Positions 709 to 17,555 of a stretch of 22,315 bases of DNA are shown here, in pieces. How positions within the stretch are numbered: position 1 is the first letter of the stretch; the number at the start of each line of letters is the position of its first letter. The stretch is from a virus. The position numbers and the translations under genes were made by a program. The DNA lies in the IMG/VR virus record IMGVR_UViG_3300049491_000471, positions 1 through 22,315 of that record, one strand, 5' to 3'. The notes below the pieces were generated by a model that did no database searches, was not told where the DNA came from, and worked only from the letters and a program-made list of their open reading frames with translations.

Positions 709-1080
709 ATGTTCCGGTATCAGCCGTTTTGGCCGGGCCGTGTCGTTGCACGCCCGCTGCCGCCGTCCGTTGCCGGGGGTCCAGCGGCAGTCAAAGGCGT
801 GTCCATCACGCTGTACAACGGCCCCATTCCAAAGGCGAGCATGTCGGGGCTGACCGTGTGCTGGTGGGACACGATCACGCCGCACACATGGGGCGCACCG
901 GACTACGCGGCAAACACCGAGACCACGGATGGCAGCGGGGTGCTGGTGGTGGACTTGAGCGCCGACACGGCCCTCTCCATCGACGACTATGGGTTCCTGC
1001 TGATTTACAAAGCGGACGGCTCGAACGTCGATAACTCGCTGGTGTTTGCCGGGCAGGTGCAGATTCAGGACATCTCGTAA
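709..1080 (+). CDS. Small phage protein, unknown function, 123 aa
   Basis: ATG 709 follows AGAAGG about 11 bases upstream. The protein has a basic, Pro-rich N-terminus (MFRYQPFWPGRVVARPLPPS), then a beta-type domain with 'VKGVSITLYNG', 'GLTVCWWDT', 'GSGVLVVDLS', 'YGFLLIYKADG' and 'VFAGQVQIQDIS'. The repeated short hydrophobic strands suggest an Ig-like or fibre-associated fold, which is inference. I do not recognise a named family. Its TAA stop overlaps the next ATG (TAATG at 1078-1082), so it should be translationally coupled to the DD-peptidase and may work with it, for example in placing it on the particle. Confidence 0.65.
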   Translation: MFRYQPFWPGRVVARPLPPSVAGGPAAVKGVSITLYNGPIPKASMSGLTVCWWDTITPHTWGAPDYAANTETTDGSGVLVVDLSADTALSIDDYGFLLIYKADGSNVDNSLVFAGQVQIQDIS

Positions 1081-2639
1081 TGGCGTTGACCGCCGACCTG
1101 AAGCGCTTCTTCCGAGACGACGCCAAGGCGCAGTTCGTCAGCGCGCGTGACGCTGAGAACAACGCCACCACGCCGCCGACACTGGCGTGGTCCGAGCGTG
1201 CCTGCGCAATCAACATCACGCGGCACAAGCCGTACTACGTCCTGGAGGCCGACCCGTCGTTCGTAGCGCCATTCAGCATGACGAAGCTGATGACGATCTA
1301 CACGCTGCTGCAATACCGCACCGAGGCCCAGTGCCTGTCGCAGACGGCGACCATCGACTCGTTCGATATTGGCGGCGGGCAGCTCGTGGCCGGCGACGTG
1401 ATGACGCTCGATGTGCTCATCGGCTTCGCGTTGGTCGAGAGCGACAACACGACGCCCAAGACGATCGCCCGCATCATCGGCCAGGAGCTGCTGACCGCAG
1501 AAGGCGGCGGCACCGGGAATTTCATCTCGGTCGAACGTTTCGTCGAGGAAATGAACACCCAGGCCGCGCGGCTTGGCATGTACGACACGGTGTGGCTCGA
1601 TCCGGTCGGCCTGGAAGCCAGCATCGTGTCGCCCATGGACATGACGCGTGTGACCGGCGCGCTTGAGCAGTACGGCATCGTGCTCGACTGGTGGACCGAT
1701 GCCAGCTACGTGGTGTCGGTCACGCACAGCGGCACGCCGACCAACTACACGATCACCAACACCAACCCGCTGCTCGGCGACCCTGGCTACATCCTGGGCA
1801 AAACCGGTACGGGCGGCCCCGCGCACGTCTCGATGCTGTGGCGCGCCCCGAACGGCGACACCATCGGCCTGGTGTCGATGACCGATGGCGGCAGCGGCAC
1901 CATCGCGGGCCGTTTTGCCGACATCGAAACGATGGTCGCGCAGTTGCCGGTGGACTATCCGGAGCTTGCAGCCGCTACCGGCGTGTCCGCCACGCTGGCC
2001 GCGCTTACCGTGTCGGCCACGGGTGCGCTGCGCATCGCCGGGGCTGCATCACATACGCTGGCCGCGCTTACTGTGTCGGCCACGGGTGCGCTACGCATCG
2101 CTGGGGCTGCATCACACACGCTGGCCACGCTTACGCTGTCGAGCCAGGGCACGCTTGGCACCGCCGGTACGGGGTCGCTGTCCCAAACACTGGCCGCTGC
2201 CACGCTGGCCGCCGCAGGCACGCTGCCCATCGCCGGCACCTTGTCGCAGACGCTGGCCGCCACAACCCTGGGCGCAACAGGCGTTGCTGGCGCCACGAAG
2301 GTCGGCACGCTATCTGCCACGCTTGGCGCTGCCACGCTGGCCGCCACCGCAACCCTGCCCATCGTCGGCACCTTGTCGCAGACGCTGGGTGCGCTCACCA
2401 CGTCGGCTGCGGGCCGGGTGGACATCGCCGCGCAGCTTGGCATCACGCTCGGCAACCTGGTGCTTGCGGCGGCGGCCGGCAGTGGCGCGCCGATCAGCGC
2501 CACGCTGTCGCAGACGCTGGCGGGGGTGACCTTGTCGGCCGCGGGCTACAGCGGCACGCCGGTCTACGTGCGCGAGCCGCAAGTCGTTCAGCTACGCAAG
2601 CCGTCGCGCCAGATCGGCACGCTACTCAAGAGCCAATGA
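1080..2639 (+). CDS. Serine DD-peptidase (S11-like DD-carboxypeptidase) with repeat-rich C-terminal tail, 519 aa
   Basis: The N-terminal 290 or so residues have the three active-site motifs of penicillin-binding DD-peptidases at proper spacing: SMTK at 66-69 (nucleophile Ser66, Lys69), SDN at 121-123 and KTG at 241-243. Between them lie 'VWLDPVGLEAS' and 'SPMDMTRV', typical of the S11/D-alanyl-D-alanine carboxypeptidase fold. Such enzymes trim the terminal D-Ala of peptidoglycan stem peptides, and some cut cross-links. No signal peptide is visible, so it is not a normal secreted PBP. From residue about 305 to 495 the protein consists of degenerate repeats of the type TLAALTVSATGxLxIAG, two of them 63-bp near-identical copies. 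The gene lies just upstream of the head genes. A virion-bound wall enzyme is the likeliest role; a moron altering the lysogen's wall is the alternative. Confidence 0.8.
   Translation: MALTADLKRFFRDDAKAQFVSARDAENNATTPPTLAWSERACAINITRHKPYYVLEADPSFVAPFSMTKLMTIYTLLQYRTEAQCLSQTATIDSFDIGGGQLVAGDVMTLDVLIGFALVESDNTTPKTIARIIGQELLTAEGGGTGNFISVERFVEEMNTQAARLGMYDTVWLDPVGLEASIVSPMDMTRVTGALEQYGIVLDWWTDASYVVSVTHSGTPTNYTITNTNPLLGDPGYILGKTGTGGPAHVSMLWRAPNGDTIGLVSMTDGGSGTIAGRFADIETMVAQLPVDYPELAAATGVSATLAALTVSATGALRIAGAASHTLAALTVSATGALRIAGAASHTLATLTLSSQGTLGTAGTGSLSQTLAAATLAAAGTLPIAGTLSQTLAATTLGATGVAGATKVGTLSATLGAATLAATATLPIVGTLSQTLGALTTSAAGRVDIAAQLGITLGNLVLAAAAGSGAPISATLSQTLAGVTLSAAGYSGTPVYVREPQVVQLRKPSRQIGTLLKSQ
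1992..2550 (+). repeat. Tandem repeats coding the C-terminal tail of the DD-peptidase
   Basis: Two adjacent 63-bp units (1992-2054 and 2055-2117) both encode the same 21-residue repeat TLAALTVSATGALRIAGAAS plus H, and differ at only a few bases. A third, diverged unit starts at 2118. More distant versions continue with SLSQTLAAATLAAAGTLPIAG, TLSQTLAATTLGATG and TLSQTLGALTTSAAG to about 2550. The pattern is alternating hydrophobic with small residues, suggesting a beta-strand or beta-solenoid stalk. The near-identity of the first two units points to recent duplication. Confidence 0.75.
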
Positions 2640-3193
2640 TGAGCACCATGCAAAACCAGATCGTCGTCGGCGAAACGCTGAACTACCGCGCCATCGCCGC
2701 CGACTACCCGGCCAGCGCCGGATGGGTGGTCACGCTGTACCTGAACCCGCGCGCCGGGGGCACGGCCACCAGCGTCGTCGGCACGGCCGACGGCGCCGAC
2801 CACCTGCTGCAAGTCACCGCACTCACCACAGCCGGCTGGGCTGCGGGCGCCTGGGCCTGGGAAACCTGGGCCGCGCTGGGCGGCGAACGTTATCGGCTCG
2901 AACACGGCCAGCTCGACGTGGTGGCCGGCCTCATTGGCGCCGCGGCCGGCACCGACACGCGCAGCCAGGCGCAGCGCGCGCTGGACGATGCCAACACCGC
3001 GTTAGCCGCGTGGACGCCCACCACCAAGCGCTACCGCATCAACGGGCGCGAGATGGAATTCAACAGTTCGGCCGAGATCATCACCATCATCAGCCACTGG
3101 ACGGCCGCCGTGAAGCGCGAAGAGGCAGCCGCCGCCATGGCGGCCGGCCGCCCCAACCCGCGCAAGCTGCAGGTGCGCCTGGGCCGCGCATAA
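2636..3193 (+). CDS. gpW-like head-tail connector with extra N-terminal beta domain, 185 aa
   Basis: ATG 2636 overlaps the preceding stop (ATGA); ATG 2639 is the next codon. Residues 1-100 form a beta-type domain ('GETLNYRAIAADYPASAGWVVTLYL', 'VTALTTAGWAAGAWAWETW'), which I know as a small domain near head-joining genes. Residues 105-185 contain 'RYRINGREMEF', 'SAEIITIISHWTAAVKREE' and a basic tail. This resembles lambda gpW, which joins the portal to the rest of the connector and has the same 'GRxVEF' strand followed by a long helix. Position directly before the portal matches gpW in lambda-like phages. The gpW assignment is by pattern, not by alignment. Confidence 0.6.
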   Translation: MMSTMQNQIVVGETLNYRAIAADYPASAGWVVTLYLNPRAGGTATSVVGTADGADHLLQVTALTTAGWAAGAWAWETWAALGGERYRLEHGQLDVVAGLIGAAAGTDTRSQAQRALDDANTALAAWTPTTKRYRINGREMEFNSSAEIITIISHWTAAVKREEAAAAMAAGRPNPRKLQVRLGRA

Positions 3194-3254: not shown

Positions 3255-4853
3255 ATGCTTCAAGGTCTGCGCCAGCGCATCGCAAAGTGGGTTGCCCCCG
3301 AAGGGGCGCGTTCCCGCACCGGCATGCGCATGTACGGCGGCGCACGCAACACCAAGACCACCGGCTACTTCGGCACATCGCAAACCTCGGCCGACGCTGA
3401 GCTGCAAAGCTCGCTGCCCCAGCTGCGCAGCCGCAGCCGGCAGATGGTGCGCGACAGCGGCTACGCCAAACGCGCCAAGGCCATCCTGGTGAACAACATC
3501 ATCGGCACCGGCGTCGGCCTGCAGGCCCAGGTGCTGGCCACGCGCGGCGAGCTGAACACCCGCGTCAACGACGACATCGAACGCGCCCACCGCGAATGGG
3601 CGCGTGCAGACGCCTGCCACACCGGCGGCACGCTGCACTTCAGCGACATGGAACGCGCCCTGTGCGGCGAAGTCGCCGAAGCCGGCGAAGTGTTCGTGCG
3701 GCTGCACATGCGCCGCTTCGGCAACAGCCAGGTGCCGCTGGCGCTGGAGATGATCGAAGCCGAGCGCCTGGCCGACGGCATCGGCATGCCCGGCCCCGCC
3801 GTCGAAGGCGGCGAGATCCGCATGGGCGTCGAAGTCGACCGCTTCCAGCGCCCGGTGGCGTACCACATCCGCCAGCGCCACGGCGGCGACATCCGGCCCG
3901 GTGCCGGCGCCACCGACCGCGTCGAGCGCGTGCCCGCCGACGAAATCATCCACCTGCGGCTGACCACCCGCTGGCCGCAGACACGCGGCGAGCCGTGGTT
4001 CCACACCGCCGTGCGCAAGCTCGACGACGTGAACGAGTACAGCCAGCACGAGATCAGCGCCGCGCGCGCCTCGGCCGCGTACTTCGCCACCATCAAGACG
4101 CCCGAATCGCCCAACCCGCTGCAGGACGAAACCGACGACACCGGCGCCGGCACGATGAACATCGAGTCGCTGACCATCCAGGAACTGCGGCCCGGCGAAG
4201 AGCTGGACTTCCACACGCCGAACCGGCCGAACAGCGCGTTCAGCGAATTCATGCGCGCCATGCTGCGCGAGATTGCCGCCGGCGTAGGTACCAGCTACGA
4301 AAGCCTGAGCCGCGACTACAGCCAAAGCAACTACAGCAGCAGCCGCCTTGCGCTGCTGGATGACCGCGACGGCTACCGCGCGCTGCAGCAATGGTGGGTT
4401 CGCTCGTTCCGCGACCCTCTGTACCGGCTGTGGCTGCAGCAGGCCGTGCTGGCGCGCGCCGTCACGGCCATCCCGGTCGAAGCCTTCGGCACCGACATGG
4501 AGCGCTACCACGCCGTGCTGTGGAAGCTGCGCGGCTGGAGCTGGGTCGACCCGACCAAGGAAGTCACCGCCTACAAGGAAGCGGTCAAGGCCGGCTTCAC
4601 CACCGTCACCGATGTGATCGCCCAGACCGCTGGCGGCATGGACATCGAAGACGTGATCGGCACGCGCAAGCGCGAGCTGGAGATGCTGTCCGATGCCGGC
4701 ATCGAGGTCGACACCACCGTGCAGGACCCGCTGGAGATGGCTTCCGCCAAGGCGCCGCCGGTAGCAGCGCCCGCTGCTGATCCCGCCGAACCAGAAGACG
4801 ACGAAGCCACCGGCCAGGCCGCGCGCGTCTACCCTTTGCGAGGTAACGCATGA
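3255..4853 (+). CDS. Phage portal protein (lambda gpB family), 532 aa
   Basis: This is the dodecameric ring protein through which DNA enters and leaves the head, and it binds terminase. The N-terminus (MLQGLRQRIAKWVAP) is followed by 'LRSRSRQMVRDSGYAKRAKAIL' and 'NNIIGTGVGLQAQV', typical of lambda-type portals. Later come 'LTTRWPQTRGEPWF', 'YSQHEISAARASAAYFATI' and 'GTSYESLSRDYSQSNYSSSR' with 'WWVRSFRDPLYRLWL', the conserved core near the clip and wing. Length is normal for the family. The tail (about 495-532) is Ala/Pro/Glu-rich and probably disordered. The stop overlaps the next gene's start (ATGA at 4850-4853), so the portal and protease-capsid gene are coupled. It is preceded by two hairpins and lacks a clear ribosome site. 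Confidence 0.93.
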   Translation: MLQGLRQRIAKWVAPEGARSRTGMRMYGGARNTKTTGYFGTSQTSADAELQSSLPQLRSRSRQMVRDSGYAKRAKAILVNNIIGTGVGLQAQVLATRGELNTRVNDDIERAHREWARADACHTGGTLHFSDMERALCGEVAEAGEVFVRLHMRRFGNSQVPLALEMIEAERLADGIGMPGPAVEGGEIRMGVEVDRFQRPVAYHIRQRHGGDIRPGAGATDRVERVPADEIIHLRLTTRWPQTRGEPWFHTAVRKLDDVNEYSQHEISAARASAAYFATIKTPESPNPLQDETDDTGAGTMNIESLTIQELRPGEELDFHTPNRPNSAFSEFMRAMLREIAAGVGTSYESLSRDYSQSNYSSSRLALLDDRDGYRALQQWWVRSFRDPLYRLWLQQAVLARAVTAIPVEAFGTDMERYHAVLWKLRGWSWVDPTKEVTAYKEAVKAGFTTVTDVIAQTAGGMDIEDVIGTRKRELEMLSDAGIEVDTTVQDPLEMASAKAPPVAAPAADPAEPEDDEATGQAARVYPLRGNA

Positions 4854-6751
4854 CCCAACGCACCAGCCAGCAGCTGCGCGCCCTGACGTTCCACCCGGAA
4901 GCCGAGCGTGCTGCCAACGGCACCATCCCGGTCATCGTGTCCACCGATGCGCTGGTCGATGTCGACGATGGCCCCGAGATCCTGGTGCACGACGCCGCGG
5001 CCATCGACCTGCAGCGCGCGCCGCTGCCGATCGTCGCCACGCACGCGTTGGGGCAGGTGAACGTCGGCGTCGTCGAAAACCTGCGCGTCGACCGCAGCGG
5101 GTCGATGGCCGTGCTGCGCGGTGATGCGCGCTTCGGCAAGCGCCAAGAGGCGGCCGGCTATGAAGCCGACGTGCTCGGCGGCGTCATTCGGTCGGTGAGC
5201 GTGCGTTACGCGCGGGTCAAGGCCCGCGTGCGCGCCGATGGCGTGCTCGTCACCTCGCGCTGGACCCCGAGCCACGTGGCAATGATCGCCGAGCCCGCCG
5301 ACGCGGGCGCGGGGTTCTACCGCCAGGCCGGCGCCACTGCTGCCCCCGCTTTCGAAATCGAGGCCGATGAGTCGGCGCCGATCACTGTTTCTCAACCCGC
5401 GGCGCATCAACGCGCTGCACCTGTAGGAGTCTCCGCAATGGATGACACGCAAGCCGTCGCGGGTAATTCTGCGACCCAATCCGCCACGGTCATCGTCACC
5501 GAAGACCACACCAACCGCCCCAGCGTTGCCGCACTCGAAAAGAGCCGGCAGCAGGCCATCCGCAACCTGGCCAAGACCAGCCAATGCGATGACCGCTACG
5601 TCGATCGTTGGATTCGTGATGGCGCCTCGCTGGAGCGCGTCGCCGACGACATGCTGGAAATCATGAAGCAGCGCGGCGACAACCAGGCCGCCACCTACCT
5701 CGACATGCCGAAGCGCGAAGTCGGCGAATACAGCCTGATGCGCGCGCTGCGTGCCGCCGCGTCGAAGGACTGGTCGAAGGCCGGCCTGGAGCTGGAAGCC
5801 AACCGCGAACTGACGAAGCGCCTGCACCGGCTGCCCAAGGCCGACACCGCCTTCTTCGTGCCGCTGGACATCATGATGCGCGGGCGCAGCGACCGCCAGC
5901 AGCGCGACATGACATCGGCCGGCGTGTCGGGTTCGAACTACCTGGTGTCCACCAACAACCAGCCCGGCAATTTCATCGAGCTGTTGCGCAACACCAGCGT
6001 GGGCCTGCGCATGGGCGTGACGCCGCTGCGTGGCCTGCAGGGCAACGTCACCATCCCGAAGATGACCGCCGGCAACACCGGCTACTGGCTGACGGATGAA
6101 AACACGGCCATCACCGAAAGCCAGCCGACCATCGGCCAGCTCTCGCTGGTGCCGAAGAACGTGGCCGCGCTCACCGAGCTGTCGCACCAGCTCATGCAGC
6201 AGTCGTCGCCCGACGCCGAGCAGCTGGTCATGGACAGCATCGCGCGCGACATCGGCCTGGCGGTTGATGTCGGCATCCTGCGCGGGTCCGGCGCCAGCGG
6301 CCAGCCCACCGGCATCGCCACCACCGGCAGCATCGGCGCCTTCACCGGCACATCGCTGGCCGCCGCCGGGCTGCTGGATGCGCAGGCCGACGTGGCCGCT
6401 GCCAACGCGCTGAACCCGGGTTGCGGCTACGTCACCACCCCGGCCGTGGCCGCGCTGTTGATGGCCCGCCCCGAGCTGCCCAGCACCGGCACCACACGCA
6501 TGTGGAAGGGCAACATGCGCGAAGGCTCCATCTTCGACATGCCCGCGCTCAGCTCGGCGCAGATGTCGTCGGCAACCATGCTCTTCGGCTGGTGGCCTTC
6601 GGTGGTGCTGGCCGAGTGGGGCGTGCTCGAGCTGATGACCAACCCCTTCAGCGACTTCACCCGCGGCCTGACCGCCGTGCGTGGCTGGTACACCTGCGAC
6701 GTAGGCGTGCGCTACGCCGGCGCGTGGAGCTACGCCACCACGATCACCTGA
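4850..6751 (+). CDS. Fused prohead protease and HK97-type major capsid protein, 633 aa
   Basis: Residues about 1-165 are a caudoviral prohead protease (S78-like). His65 in 'IVATHALGQVNVG' and Ser115/Ser117 in 'GVIRSVSVRYARV' fit the His/Ser active site, followed by 'SHVAMIAEPADAGAGFYR'. Residues about 165-290 are polar and helix-rich and may act as a scaffold (delta) domain. Residues about 300-633 are an HK97-fold capsid protein, with 'NYLVSTNNQPGNFIELLRN', 'MTAGNTGYWLTDENTAITESQ', 'LSHQLMQQSSPDAEQLVMDSIARDIG' and 'GILRGSGASGQPTGI'. Protease and capsid are usually separate genes. Here there is no stop between them, although an internal start at 5438 could make the capsid part alone. Confidence 0.9.
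   Translation: MTQRTSQQLRALTFHPEAERAANGTIPVIVSTDALVDVDDGPEILVHDAAAIDLQRAPLPIVATHALGQVNVGVVENLRVDRSGSMAVLRGDARFGKRQEAAGYEADVLGGVIRSVSVRYARVKARVRADGVLVTSRWTPSHVAMIAEPADAGAGFYRQAGATAAPAFEIEADESAPITVSQPAAHQRAAPVGVSAMDDTQAVAGNSATQSATVIVTEDHTNRPSVAALEKSRQQAIRNLAKTSQCDDRYVDRWIRDGASLERVADDMLEIMKQRGDNQAATYLDMPKREVGEYSLMRALRAAASKDWSKAGLELEANRELTKRLHRLPKADTAFFVPLDIMMRGRSDRQQRDMTSAGVSGSNYLVSTNNQPGNFIELLRNTSVGLRMGVTPLRGLQGNVTIPKMTAGNTGYWLTDENTAITESQPTIGQLSLVPKNVAALTELSHQLMQQSSPDAEQLVMDSIARDIGLAVDVGILRGSGASGQPTGIATTGSIGAFTGTSLAAAGLLDAQADVAAANALNPGCGYVTTPAVAALLMARPELPSTGTTRMWKGNMREGSIFDMPALSSAQMSSATMLFGWWPSVVLAEWGVLELMTNPFSDFTRGLTAVRGWYTCDVGVRYAGAWSYATTIT
5425..5440 (+). promoter_or_regulatory. Internal ribosome site and in-frame start for a separate capsid product
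   Basis: AGGAG at 5425-5429 lies 8 bases before an in-frame ATG at 5438, codon 197 of the fused protease-capsid gene. Starting here would give a 437-residue protein holding the scaffold-like segment and the capsid domain without the protease. The sequence around it looks like an intergenic junction, and the adjacent frame has a TAG directly on the Shine-Dalgarno sequence (5424-5426). Use of this start is inference from sequence alone. Confidence 0.6.
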
Positions 6752-11950: not shown

Positions 11951-12555
11951 GCCTCACGCTCGACGGCACCGCCAGCGCGCGTATTGCCGCGGCCGTGCGT
12001 GGCGTGGCGTGGCTGGTGCAGCTCGACTTCACCACCGGCACCATCTATTACACCACCGCGCCGCAAAGCTTCGTCATCAGCAGCCAGACGTACATCGGCC
12101 TGGGCAACCTGGCCGACGTGTCGCCGGTGGGCGAAAGCGAAAACACCGGCGCCGACCAGGTGGTGCTGGGCTTTAGCCTGGTCAACACCGCGTTGCTGGC
12201 GGCCACCATCGGCAACGTCGATACCTACCGCGGGCGCGCCGTGCGGCTGTACCTTCAGCTTTTCGACGAAGCTTTCCAGCCGGCCGGCGCGCCGGTGCTG
12301 CGCTGGTCGGGGACGATGCAGCCGGTGAAGGTGTCGCGCACGCCCAGCGACCCGGCGGGTGGCGCCAGCGTCGGCCGGCTGGAGCTGCCATGCACCCGCG
12401 CCGGCATGGCCCGCGCGCGCAACGCCCAGGGCCTGCGCCTGAGCCATGCCCAGCAGCTGCAGCGCTACCCCGGAGACGTGGGGCTGGAGTACGTGCAGAC
12501 GCTGATCGAACAGCCCAGCCTGTGGCTGAGCAAGCGCTTTCAGGCGCAGCGATGA
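11947..12555 (+). CDS. Minor tail protein (DUF2163/gpL-like), 202 aa
   Basis: ATG 11947 overlaps the previous stop (ATGA). The sequence contains 'AVRGVAWLVQLDFTTGTIYYTTAPQSFVISSQTYIGLGNLADVSPV', 'GFSLVNTALLAAT', 'TYRGRAVRLYLQLFDEAFQPAGAPVLRWSGTMQPVKVSRT' and 'LPCTRAGMARARNAQGLRLSHAQQLQRYPGDVGLEYVQTL'. This matches the layout of DUF2163-like or related minor tail proteins: a reported strip of film-like strands, a change to 'G.V..v' elements, and a final 'RYPGDxGLEYV' near the C-terminus. It precedes a DUF6950 gene and a J-like gene, the usual tip cluster. It probably forms part of the tail-tip hub; the family name is tentative. Confidence 0.65.
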   Translation: MSLTLDGTASARIAAAVRGVAWLVQLDFTTGTIYYTTAPQSFVISSQTYIGLGNLADVSPVGESENTGADQVVLGFSLVNTALLAATIGNVDTYRGRAVRLYLQLFDEAFQPAGAPVLRWSGTMQPVKVSRTPSDPAGGASVGRLELPCTRAGMARARNAQGLRLSHAQQLQRYPGDVGLEYVQTLIEQPSLWLSKRFQAQR

Positions 12556-12965
12556 GCACCCCGCGCGAACTCGCCGACTACCTGGCCGAAGTCGGTGCGA
12601 AGCCCTTCGACTGGGCGACGTGGAATTGCTGCACCTTCGCCGCCGGCTGGGTGCAACGCCGCACCGGCATCGACGTGATGCACGGCCTGGCGCGCACCGC
12701 CAGCCGGCACGCCGCGTGGCGGCTGGTCGGCCAGGTGGGCGGCAGCTTGCAGCAGGCGTGGTCCACTCGCCTGGGCGCCGCGCACATCGCGCCCGAGCTG
12801 GCGCAGGCCGGGGACGTGGTGCTGCTGCTGGTGCCCGGCGCGATCGACGAAGCGGTGGGCCTGTGCGCCGGCCGGCTGGCGGCGTGCGTCACGCCTGAAG
12901 ACGGCATCGCCATGTTCCCGATGGATTGGGCCACGCACGCGTGGCGCGTGGAGCCCGCCAAATGA
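12552..12965 (+). CDS. DUF6950 / NlpC-P60-like tail protein, 137 aa
   Basis: The start overlaps the previous stop (ATGA at 12552). The N-terminal motif 'FDWATWNCCTFAAGWVQRRTGID' carries the conserved Cys pair (Cys26, Cys27) at the head of a helix, as in NlpC/P60-type cysteine peptidases. It is followed by 'AGDVVLLLV' and 'AVGLCAGRLAACVTP', the strand order of that fold. The catalytic His usual in NlpC/P60 proteins ('HxGI') is replaced here by 'EAVGLCAG', so hydrolase activity is doubtful. In many phages this gene lies directly before the tip attachment protein and acts in tail tip assembly, like the C-terminal domain of lambda gpK. Confidence 0.75.
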   Translation: MSTPRELADYLAEVGAKPFDWATWNCCTFAAGWVQRRTGIDVMHGLARTASRHAAWRLVGQVGGSLQQAWSTRLGAAHIAPELAQAGDVVLLLVPGAIDEAVGLCAGRLAACVTPEDGIAMFPMDWATHAWRVEPAK

Positions 12966-16473: not shown

Positions 16474-17163
16474 ATGCGCAAGTGGCACTTCTACGACCTG
16501 GCAAGCGGCCTGTTCACCGGGCGCGTGCTGCTCAGCTCGCGCGGCCTGCCGACGCCGGAACAGACGGTGCAGCTGCCAGGCGGCGGCCAGGCCGTGGTGC
16601 CCGCCATGCCGGGCATCGAGGTGCCGGCCGGCTGTGGGGCCATCGAATGGCCAGGCGGGACGCGGCTGGACATCAAGGCGCGGCGCGTGAACTTAGCCAC
16701 TGGCGCGGTGGAAGCCTTCCAGCCGACGGCGCCGGCCGACACCGTGTTGCACACCTGGGCGTGGGATGAGGCCGCCGAACGCTGGCTGCCCGTGCCCACG
16801 CTGGCCGCGCACAAGCGCGCCAAGCTGGTCACGCTGTCGACCGCTGCCGCAGCCAACGCCGAAGCCGACATTACCGTGCAGGCGCGCACCTTCGCCGCCG
16901 ATGCCGCCACGCGCGATGAGCTGTACCGTGAGCTTCAGTTCGCCCTGGCCGCGCAGCTGGACGGCCTGGCCTTCACCCTGGCGTGGGAGGACGCGGCCGG
17001 CGCAGCGGTCGCGCTCAGCGGCGCCCAGCTCAAAGGGCTGTTGCGCGCCACGCGGGCCCGCGCCGTGGACATACGCGCTCAGTGGCGCGAGCTGCGGGCG
17101 CAGGTGGTGGCTGCCGCCGATGTGGCGGGCGTCGATGCGGTGGTGTGGGTGGCGGTGACATGA
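16474..17163 (+). CDS. Tail fibre assembly-type protein (DUF4376-like C-terminus), 229 aa
   Basis: Start at ATG 16474, just after the J-like stop; the longer upstream frame overlaps the J-like gene and looks artificial. The N-terminus (MRKWHFYDLASGLFTGRVL) and middle ('GAIEWPGGTRLDIKARRVNLATGAVEAFQP', 'WAWDEAAERWLPVP') resemble the fibre-end or assembly proteins that follow tail tip genes. The C-terminal half ('DELYRELQFALAAQLDGLAFTLAW', 'GAQLKGLLRATRARAVDIRAQWRELRAQV') resembles DUF4376. It may bind the tip or help its folding. The gene overlaps the next start (ATGA at 17160). Confidence 0.65.
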   Translation: MRKWHFYDLASGLFTGRVLLSSRGLPTPEQTVQLPGGGQAVVPAMPGIEVPAGCGAIEWPGGTRLDIKARRVNLATGAVEAFQPTAPADTVLHTWAWDEAAERWLPVPTLAAHKRAKLVTLSTAAAANAEADITVQARTFAADAATRDELYRELQFALAAQLDGLAFTLAWEDAAGAAVALSGAQLKGLLRATRARAVDIRAQWRELRAQVVAAADVAGVDAVVWVAVT

Positions 17164-17555
17164 ACGGCGAAGCCATCATCCGCGCGCACCTGGCCGCCAT
17201 GCTGTCGATGGGCGAATCCTTCGCGCCGCTGACGCACGCCCAGGCGGTGCGGGTGGCCTTCGGGGCGATCTATCTCGAAGCGGTGCGGTGCGCGGGCGTT
17301 TTGCCGCGCGACGACAACCATCTGGTGATCTGCGGCGTGCGCGCCGTGCACGAAGCCCAGGCAGGTCTGCTTGACCGCGATCTGCTCATCTCACGCATCG
17401 AAGCGCTGACGAAGGACGAACAAACTGCCTACTCGCTGCGCTACGAACACGGCATGAGTGATGCCGAGATCGCCGCGGCCATCGGCATCGATGAAGACGC
17501 GGTGGTGTCGCTGATGCTGCGCGCGTTGCTCAAAATAACCGGGGTTGCCGAATGA
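17160..17555 (+). CDS. Small HTH protein resembling sigma-70 region 4, 131 aa
   Basis: The start overlaps the preceding stop. Residues about 83-126 read 'LTKDEQTAYSLRYEHGMSDAEIAAAIGIDEDAVVSLMLRALLKI'. This has the order of sigma-factor region 4: a lead helix with 'LT.dEq.a..LRY.hGMS..EIA..iGI.e..V....RAL..I', where a helix-turn-helix normally reads the -35 box. The first 80 residues are helical with no clear match and no region 2. The position, between a tail gene and membrane proteins, is unusual for a transcription factor. It could be a late regulator or a structural protein that has reused this fold. I am fairly sure of the HTH pattern, not of the role. Confidence 0.65.
   Translation: MNGEAIIRAHLAAMLSMGESFAPLTHAQAVRVAFGAIYLEAVRCAGVLPRDDNHLVICGVRAVHEAQAGLLDRDLLISRIEALTKDEQTAYSLRYEHGMSDAEIAAAIGIDEDAVVSLMLRALLKITGVAE

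Follow-up and report, generated by a model that had tools for sequence, protein, structure and literature searches.

A modular late gene, which encodes a PBP-type DD-peptidase domain of the S11 family joined to a repeat stalk and a short basic tail, was identified in an environmental viral DNA stretch of 22,315 bases (an IMG/VR virus record, possibly a fragment; the whole stretch is hereafter referred to as the window). The product is most likely a virion appendage whose S11 head attacks the stem peptides of peptidoglycan at entry, a reading given about an even chance of being right. It is favoured because the head carries all three S11 motifs and its closest solved sequences are DD-endopeptidases; because the gene overlaps both of its neighbours by one base in a morphogenesis operon and its product has no signal peptide; because genes at the same place in two other viral contigs, L007 and L022, share its tail and have other N-terminal parts; because this place is empty in Pseudomonas phage PPpW-3 and Enterobacter phage Arya and holds other proteins in L010 and L013; because the S11 genes of four phage isolates lie in the tail module, with LamG fusions in R6L and Mwe-JY26; and because the neighbouring 222-689 product is a predicted jelly roll and a VanY protein has been detected in the virions of cyanophage S-SCSM1. 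Against it count the position of the window gene before the portal gene rather than in the tail module, where the isolates have theirs, the loss of the Asn of SxN in two phage relatives, a DUF6950 protein already encoded among the tail genes, and the poor prediction of the KTG region and the stalk.

The features of the window on which the analysis draws are as follows.

222 to 689, + strand: cassette neighbour of a jelly-roll family with homologues in 19 other viral loci (homology, model)
709 to 1080, + strand: cassette neighbour with the N-terminus MFRxxPFWPxRVVARP (sequence)
1078 to 1082, + strand: TAATG overlap of the stop of the 709-1080 gene and the start of the S11 gene (sequence)
1080 to 2639, + strand: S11 gene, a single open reading frame with an ATG start; head, repeat stalk and C-terminal tail, 519 aa
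1164 to 1973, + strand: Peptidase_S11 (PBP-type DD-peptidase) head, residues ~29-298 (Pfam, Foldseek, VIA-align)
1275 to 1286, + strand: SxxK nucleophile motif, codons S66-M-T-K69 (sequence; kept in 5/5 phage S11 domains)
1440 to 1448, + strand: SxN motif, codons S121-D-N123 (sequence; Ser kept in all phage domains)
1800 to 1808, + strand: KTG motif, codons K241-T-G243 (sequence; invariant in phage domains)
1986 to 2561, + strand: repeat stalk, ~9 units of 21-23 residues (direct-repeat search, TRF, protein reading)
2562 to 2636, + strand: C-terminal tail VYVREPQVVQLRKPSRQIGTLLKSQ, common to the L007 and L022 proteins
2637 to 2641, + strand: TGATG overlap of the S11 gene stop and the head-tail joining gene start (sequence)
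2639 to 3193, + strand: head-tail joining protein (phrog_5774, E 1.5e-30)
3255 to 4853, + strand: portal protein, lambda family (Pfam PF05136, E 2.5e-97)
4850 to 6751, + strand: protease/major capsid protein (Pfam PF05065, E 6e-30; phrog_617)

Within residues 1-300 of the S11 protein, SMTK at 66, SDN at 121 and KTG at 241 are the sole matches to S..K, S.N and KTG, so that each of the motifs reported in a first-pass annotation of this DNA is present once and in order. The repeat region of about 190 residues described there was likewise recovered, ~9 units spanning residues ~303-494 when the stalk is read as protein; its DNA forms a direct-repeat family (D1) of 7 copies at 1991-2563, with a TRF period of 63. 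The short basic tail comprises the last 25 residues. In agreement with the earlier reading, no signal peptide was found by Kyte-Doolittle hydropathy, the top 15-residue mean in the first 60 residues being 0.3, and by the same measure the protein lacks the export signal of bacterial low-molecular-weight PBPs of the DacA/PBP7 type. GC content at the third codon position of the S11 part (0.885) is the same as that of the structural genes.

Assignment of the head to S11 is supported by profile, by the ordered SxxK, SxN and KTG motifs and by fold. The profile comparison proposed by the first-pass annotation gave a Pfam Peptidase_S11 (PF00768) match over residues 62-259 with an E-value of 4.9e-11 and 43 bits against a cut-off of 27.6, which places it beyond chance. 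Class C, the other family proposed there, was not borne out: besides S11, Pfam gave only a match to Beta-lactamase2 (class A-type), which was rejected on its score (15.3 bits against a cut-off of 22, E 0.013). A phmmer search of solved structures retrieved the DD-endopeptidases 6azi (E 1.2e-5) and 6muq (E 1.2e-4) as the closest sequences, with KTG aligned with KTG; the best NCBIfam model, that of the PBP7-type DD-endopeptidase (PRK11669.1), scored 31.2 bits, below its cut-off of 294. A structure was predicted from an input alignment (A2) of 11 rows, in which most blocks of the head have pLDDT values of 60-87 and the stalk is unconfident. The predicted head matches 6azi in Foldseek (E 2.3e-12, TM by target 0.69) and the K15 DD-transpeptidase in VIA-align (Z 21.8, rmsd 2.9, 245 residues), with Pseudomonas aeruginosa PBP5 tied. 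The geometry of KTG is unconfirmed in the model, since residues 230-245 have pLDDT values below 50; alignment A2 probably misplaces the KTG of the window protein, which may account for these low values. Domain family, fold and motifs are thus shared with bacterial PBP5/DacA, the PBP7 DD-endopeptidase and the Streptomyces K15 DD-transpeptidase, whereas the window protein has no signal peptide and carries a repeat stalk instead; a Pfam search of it gave no match to the C-terminal PBP5 domain. As all three motifs are intact, beta-lactam binding by the predicted head is possible.

The S11 gene lies ahead of the portal gene in a late operon, followed by genes for head-tail joining, portal, protease/capsid, head closure, major tail, tape measure, distal tail, tail and tail fibre proteins, which upholds the structural operon proposed earlier. 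Elsewhere in the window, a sigma-70 region 4 domain (Pfam E 1.2e-9) is encoded at 17160-17555, an odd site for a regulator between tail fibre and holin-like genes. An apparently shortened gene at 21068-21556 matches DUF4372 (E 9.8e-29), which we take to be the N-terminus of IS4-type transposases.

Comparison with relatives collected by a portal protein search revealed that the interval between the terminase and head-tail joining genes is a variable slot, newly seen here. The genes upstream of head-tail joining differ among these relatives, being GDSL-lipase-like in L013, a beta-helix in L010 and without an assignment in the rest; the slot is empty in PPpW-3 and Arya, since their terminase and head-tail joining genes abut, and merely ~360 bases separate the two genes in L091. 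S11 matches were absent from all 33 related records searched, many of which are short. A tail motif, KP[SA]RQIGxLLK, was noticed first in L007, and a degenerate DNA search of viral contigs for it returned two stretches only, L089 (the L007 contig) and L022, in both of which the tail-bearing gene is directly upstream of head-tail joining. The L007 protein has a different N-terminal domain (a weak match to the end of phrog_24476) followed by repeats, and the L022 protein has an N-terminus resembling that of the 709-1080 gene of the window, also with repeats. The window tail matches those of L007 and L022 at 11 and 10 of 16 positions, respectively, and none of 5000 shuffles scored as high; the L007 comparison was run after the likeness had been noticed, and the L022 tail was unseen before the DNA search. 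Occurrence of one tail with an S11 head, with another head or with plain repeats, in one slot, indicates that S11 is a swappable head on a common stalk-and-tail plan. The conserved C-terminal tail would be the anchor to the particle.

The rarity of S11-type enzymes in phages, asserted in the first-pass annotation, holds in the data searched: among 50,697 records, S11 was found above the Pfam cut-off in four phage isolates (R6L, ZS04, Mwe-JY26 and Tedan), and a viral structure-prediction library gave four strong matches. The latter comprise two DacC-named proteins of uncultured phages and two unnamed entries of 755 and 512 aa, lengths that fit R6L gp77 and the Tedan protein. All four isolates have the S11 gene in the tail module: in R6L and ZS04 it is the second gene after a large tail protein gene, in Tedan it follows a tail-fibre-like gene, and in Mwe-JY26 an S11-LamG protein is followed by a lysozyme gene. 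Like the window protein, gp77 of Erythrobacter phage vB_EliS-R6L and ZS04_37 have a leaderless S11 domain with all three motifs in a larger late-operon protein; however, the window domain is 27-29% identical to theirs, R6L gp77 is LamG-S11-LamG (the first LamG by sequence, the rest by Pfam) where the window protein has a repeat stalk, and their genes follow tail genes whereas that of the window precedes the portal gene. The paper describing R6L is without proteomics, gp77 being named by similarity (PMC5463345). The D-Ala-D-Ala carboxypeptidase of Microcystis phage Mwe-JY26 and P67b_00005 of Ruegeria phage Tedan resemble the window protein in having an N-terminal S11 head and a non-enzymatic C-terminal part; this part is LamG or unassigned in the two phages and consists of repeats in the window, and the Asn of SxN is replaced in both (SGS, SGG) whereas the window retains it. 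The Ser and Lys of SxxK as well as KTG are kept in five of five phage S11 domains, and the loss of Ser66 and Lys69 in all relatives, by which the earlier proposal was to be refuted, is thus not seen. In phylogenetic trees the phage S11 domains group with support of 89/85 and 90/77; a single phage origin is suggested, although these values are under the program threshold and the branches are long.

Further searches defined the extent of this group. Viral-contig scans with the phage S11 domain alignment or with the R6L and Mwe-JY26 proteins gave no relatives, and a scan with the window domain gave L001 only, which was not counted as a structural relative on account of the leader-like N-terminus of its S11; phages closer to the window possibly lie outside the set searched. 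A scan of genome contigs found cellular-type S11 proteins only, and the hits of a profile search in 385 genomes, all from one class, had the length of cellular proteins. Human faecal hits named 'Bacteriophage sp.' were set aside, the two inspected, L005 (MT835555.1) and L052 (MT836334.1), lying among bacterial housekeeping genes; by gene content, these records are apparently bacterial DNA. Hits in 'Acinetobacter phage MD-2021a' were set aside solely on the bacterial gene names pbpG, dacA and dacD. Microcystis phage MJing1 has genes named D-Ala-D-Ala carboxypeptidase, yet they gave no S11 match. A further phage case of S11 or M15 may be the endolysin of phage DLP4, described as a D-Ala-D-Ala carboxypeptidase (PMC6469090).

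Four other readings were weighed, ranked here from the most to the least probable. The S11 head may be a virion-borne binding module that docks on stem peptides with little or no catalysis, like lectin-like heads in relatives. The same tail bears a non-enzymatic-looking head in L007 and repeats only in L022, S11 is fused to LamG in two isolates, and the SxN Asn is lost in Mwe-JY26 and Tedan, all of which favour such a module. However, the motifs are intact in the window, R6L and ZS04, and the K15 DD-transpeptidase, which has the S11 fold, carries Cys at the position of this Asn (mutants C98A, C98N), so that loss of the Asn need not abolish activity. On balance, a purely binding role is considered unlikely.

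The neighbouring gene at 222-689 bears on whether the protein might instead be attached to the head, at the capsid surface or neck, and serve a purpose other than entry, such as tethering particles to wall fragments. Homologues of the 222-689 protein that are 41% identical to it occur in Manatee Spring phages, close to a gene that bears a pectate lyase annotation. The structure predicted for the 222-689 protein is a jelly roll of high confidence and resembles other viral jelly rolls to a modest degree, cement, turret, vertex and tail-needle knob proteins among them, which is compatible with a surface role. The cement, turret and vertex matches, together with the position of the S11 gene next to head-tail joining and portal genes, speak for head attachment; the tail-needle knobs among the same matches and the tail-module location in all four isolates speak against it, and head attachment is judged improbable.

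Recurring sequences were also observed around the 222-689 family in other loci. The gene just upstream of the homologue in L021-L025, L029, L030, L032, L034, L036, L037 and L039 encodes a protein of ~200-240 aa ending in a short recurring tail (FPRPILNF, RRPSxGLLxR or RRPxxGALLxx) that recalls the KPSRQIGTLLKSQ of the S11 protein; the upstream proteins of L026 and L038 are without it. Such tails are perhaps a common attachment tag. The gene just downstream often begins MxxFRxxPWWPxRVxAR, followed by repeats; starts of this type are found at 709-780 in the window and at 6487 in L021, 4998 in L022, 6476 in L023, 6491 in L024 and 6499 in L025.

Ranked next, and also of low probability, is a role in lysis, as an enzyme or aid that works from within the cell when infection ends. 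No recognised endolysin was found among the window genes scanned, and in Mwe-JY26, R6L and ZS04 the S11 gene is closely followed by one for a lysozyme or endolysin. However, an endolysin gene may lie outside the record, since the window is possibly a fragment, and a lysis role would need neither a repeat stalk nor a common tail, nor would it fit a protein without a signal peptide encoded at the start of a morphogenesis operon. A lysogenic-conversion factor that modifies the lysogen's wall or its response to beta-lactams, the alternative put forward in the first-pass annotation, is hardly credible: an integrase gene on the strand opposite to the S11 gene makes the phage probably temperate, but the protein has no export signal and its gene overlaps late structural genes by one base on both sides rather than forming a separate moron-like unit. 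The virion-bound or fibre-like wall enzyme put forward alongside it gains indirect support from the operon overlaps, the common tail and the tail-module genes of the isolates.

Known virion wall enzymes provide a frame for the virion-appendage reading. Glycosidases predominate among those described, and amidases and endopeptidases make up a smaller part (PMC5380687); the role proposed for the window protein, local cutting of the wall at entry, is that of virion-associated lysins (PMC5380687), and it combines a predicted catalytic wall-enzyme domain (S11) with a gene in a morphogenesis operon, as expected of that class. The D-Ala-D-Ala carboxypeptidase ORF214 of cyanophage S-SCSM1 was detected in virions (PMC9602691) and shares with the window protein a DD-carboxypeptidase-type domain; it is, however, a VanY (M15) rather than an S11 domain. 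In the sequence (L099, 318-3713), this domain is part of a protein of 1131 aa whose gene adjoins that of the baseplate hub, and it forms an M15 counterpart of the S11 protein. In the open-licence literature searched, this VanY is the sole proteomic case of a virion DD-carboxypeptidase; the search found neither a penicillin-type serine DD-peptidase shown in a virion nor proteomic or enzymatic data on an S11 protein of any phage. The DUF6950 protein among the window tail genes (12546-12965, Pfam) is presumably NlpC/P60-like, hence a possible tail-tip peptidase.

As a virion appendage, the S11 protein would be fixed to the particle by its conserved basic C-terminal tail, and the stalk would carry the head so that it reaches the host peptidoglycan during adsorption or DNA entry. 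The head would then attack D-Ala-containing stem peptides or cross-links through an acyl-enzyme at Ser66, presumably as an endopeptidase rather than a carboxypeptidase, and the wall would be loosened locally. A bolder and more tentative version, in which the slot exchanges unrelated heads on a common stalk-and-tail and has here acquired an active penicillin-binding DD-peptidase that sits on the virion, binds beta-lactams and cuts cross-links at entry, is regarded as rather doubtful.

The findings suggest a virus-borne wall-attacking enzyme of a rare kind. Were it active on the virion, phage entry would involve a member of the enzyme class targeted by beta-lactams, and penicillin might block the process. 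The common tail with exchanged heads also offers a way to study how these phages swap surface domains at a constant locus distinct from the usual place of tail fibres.
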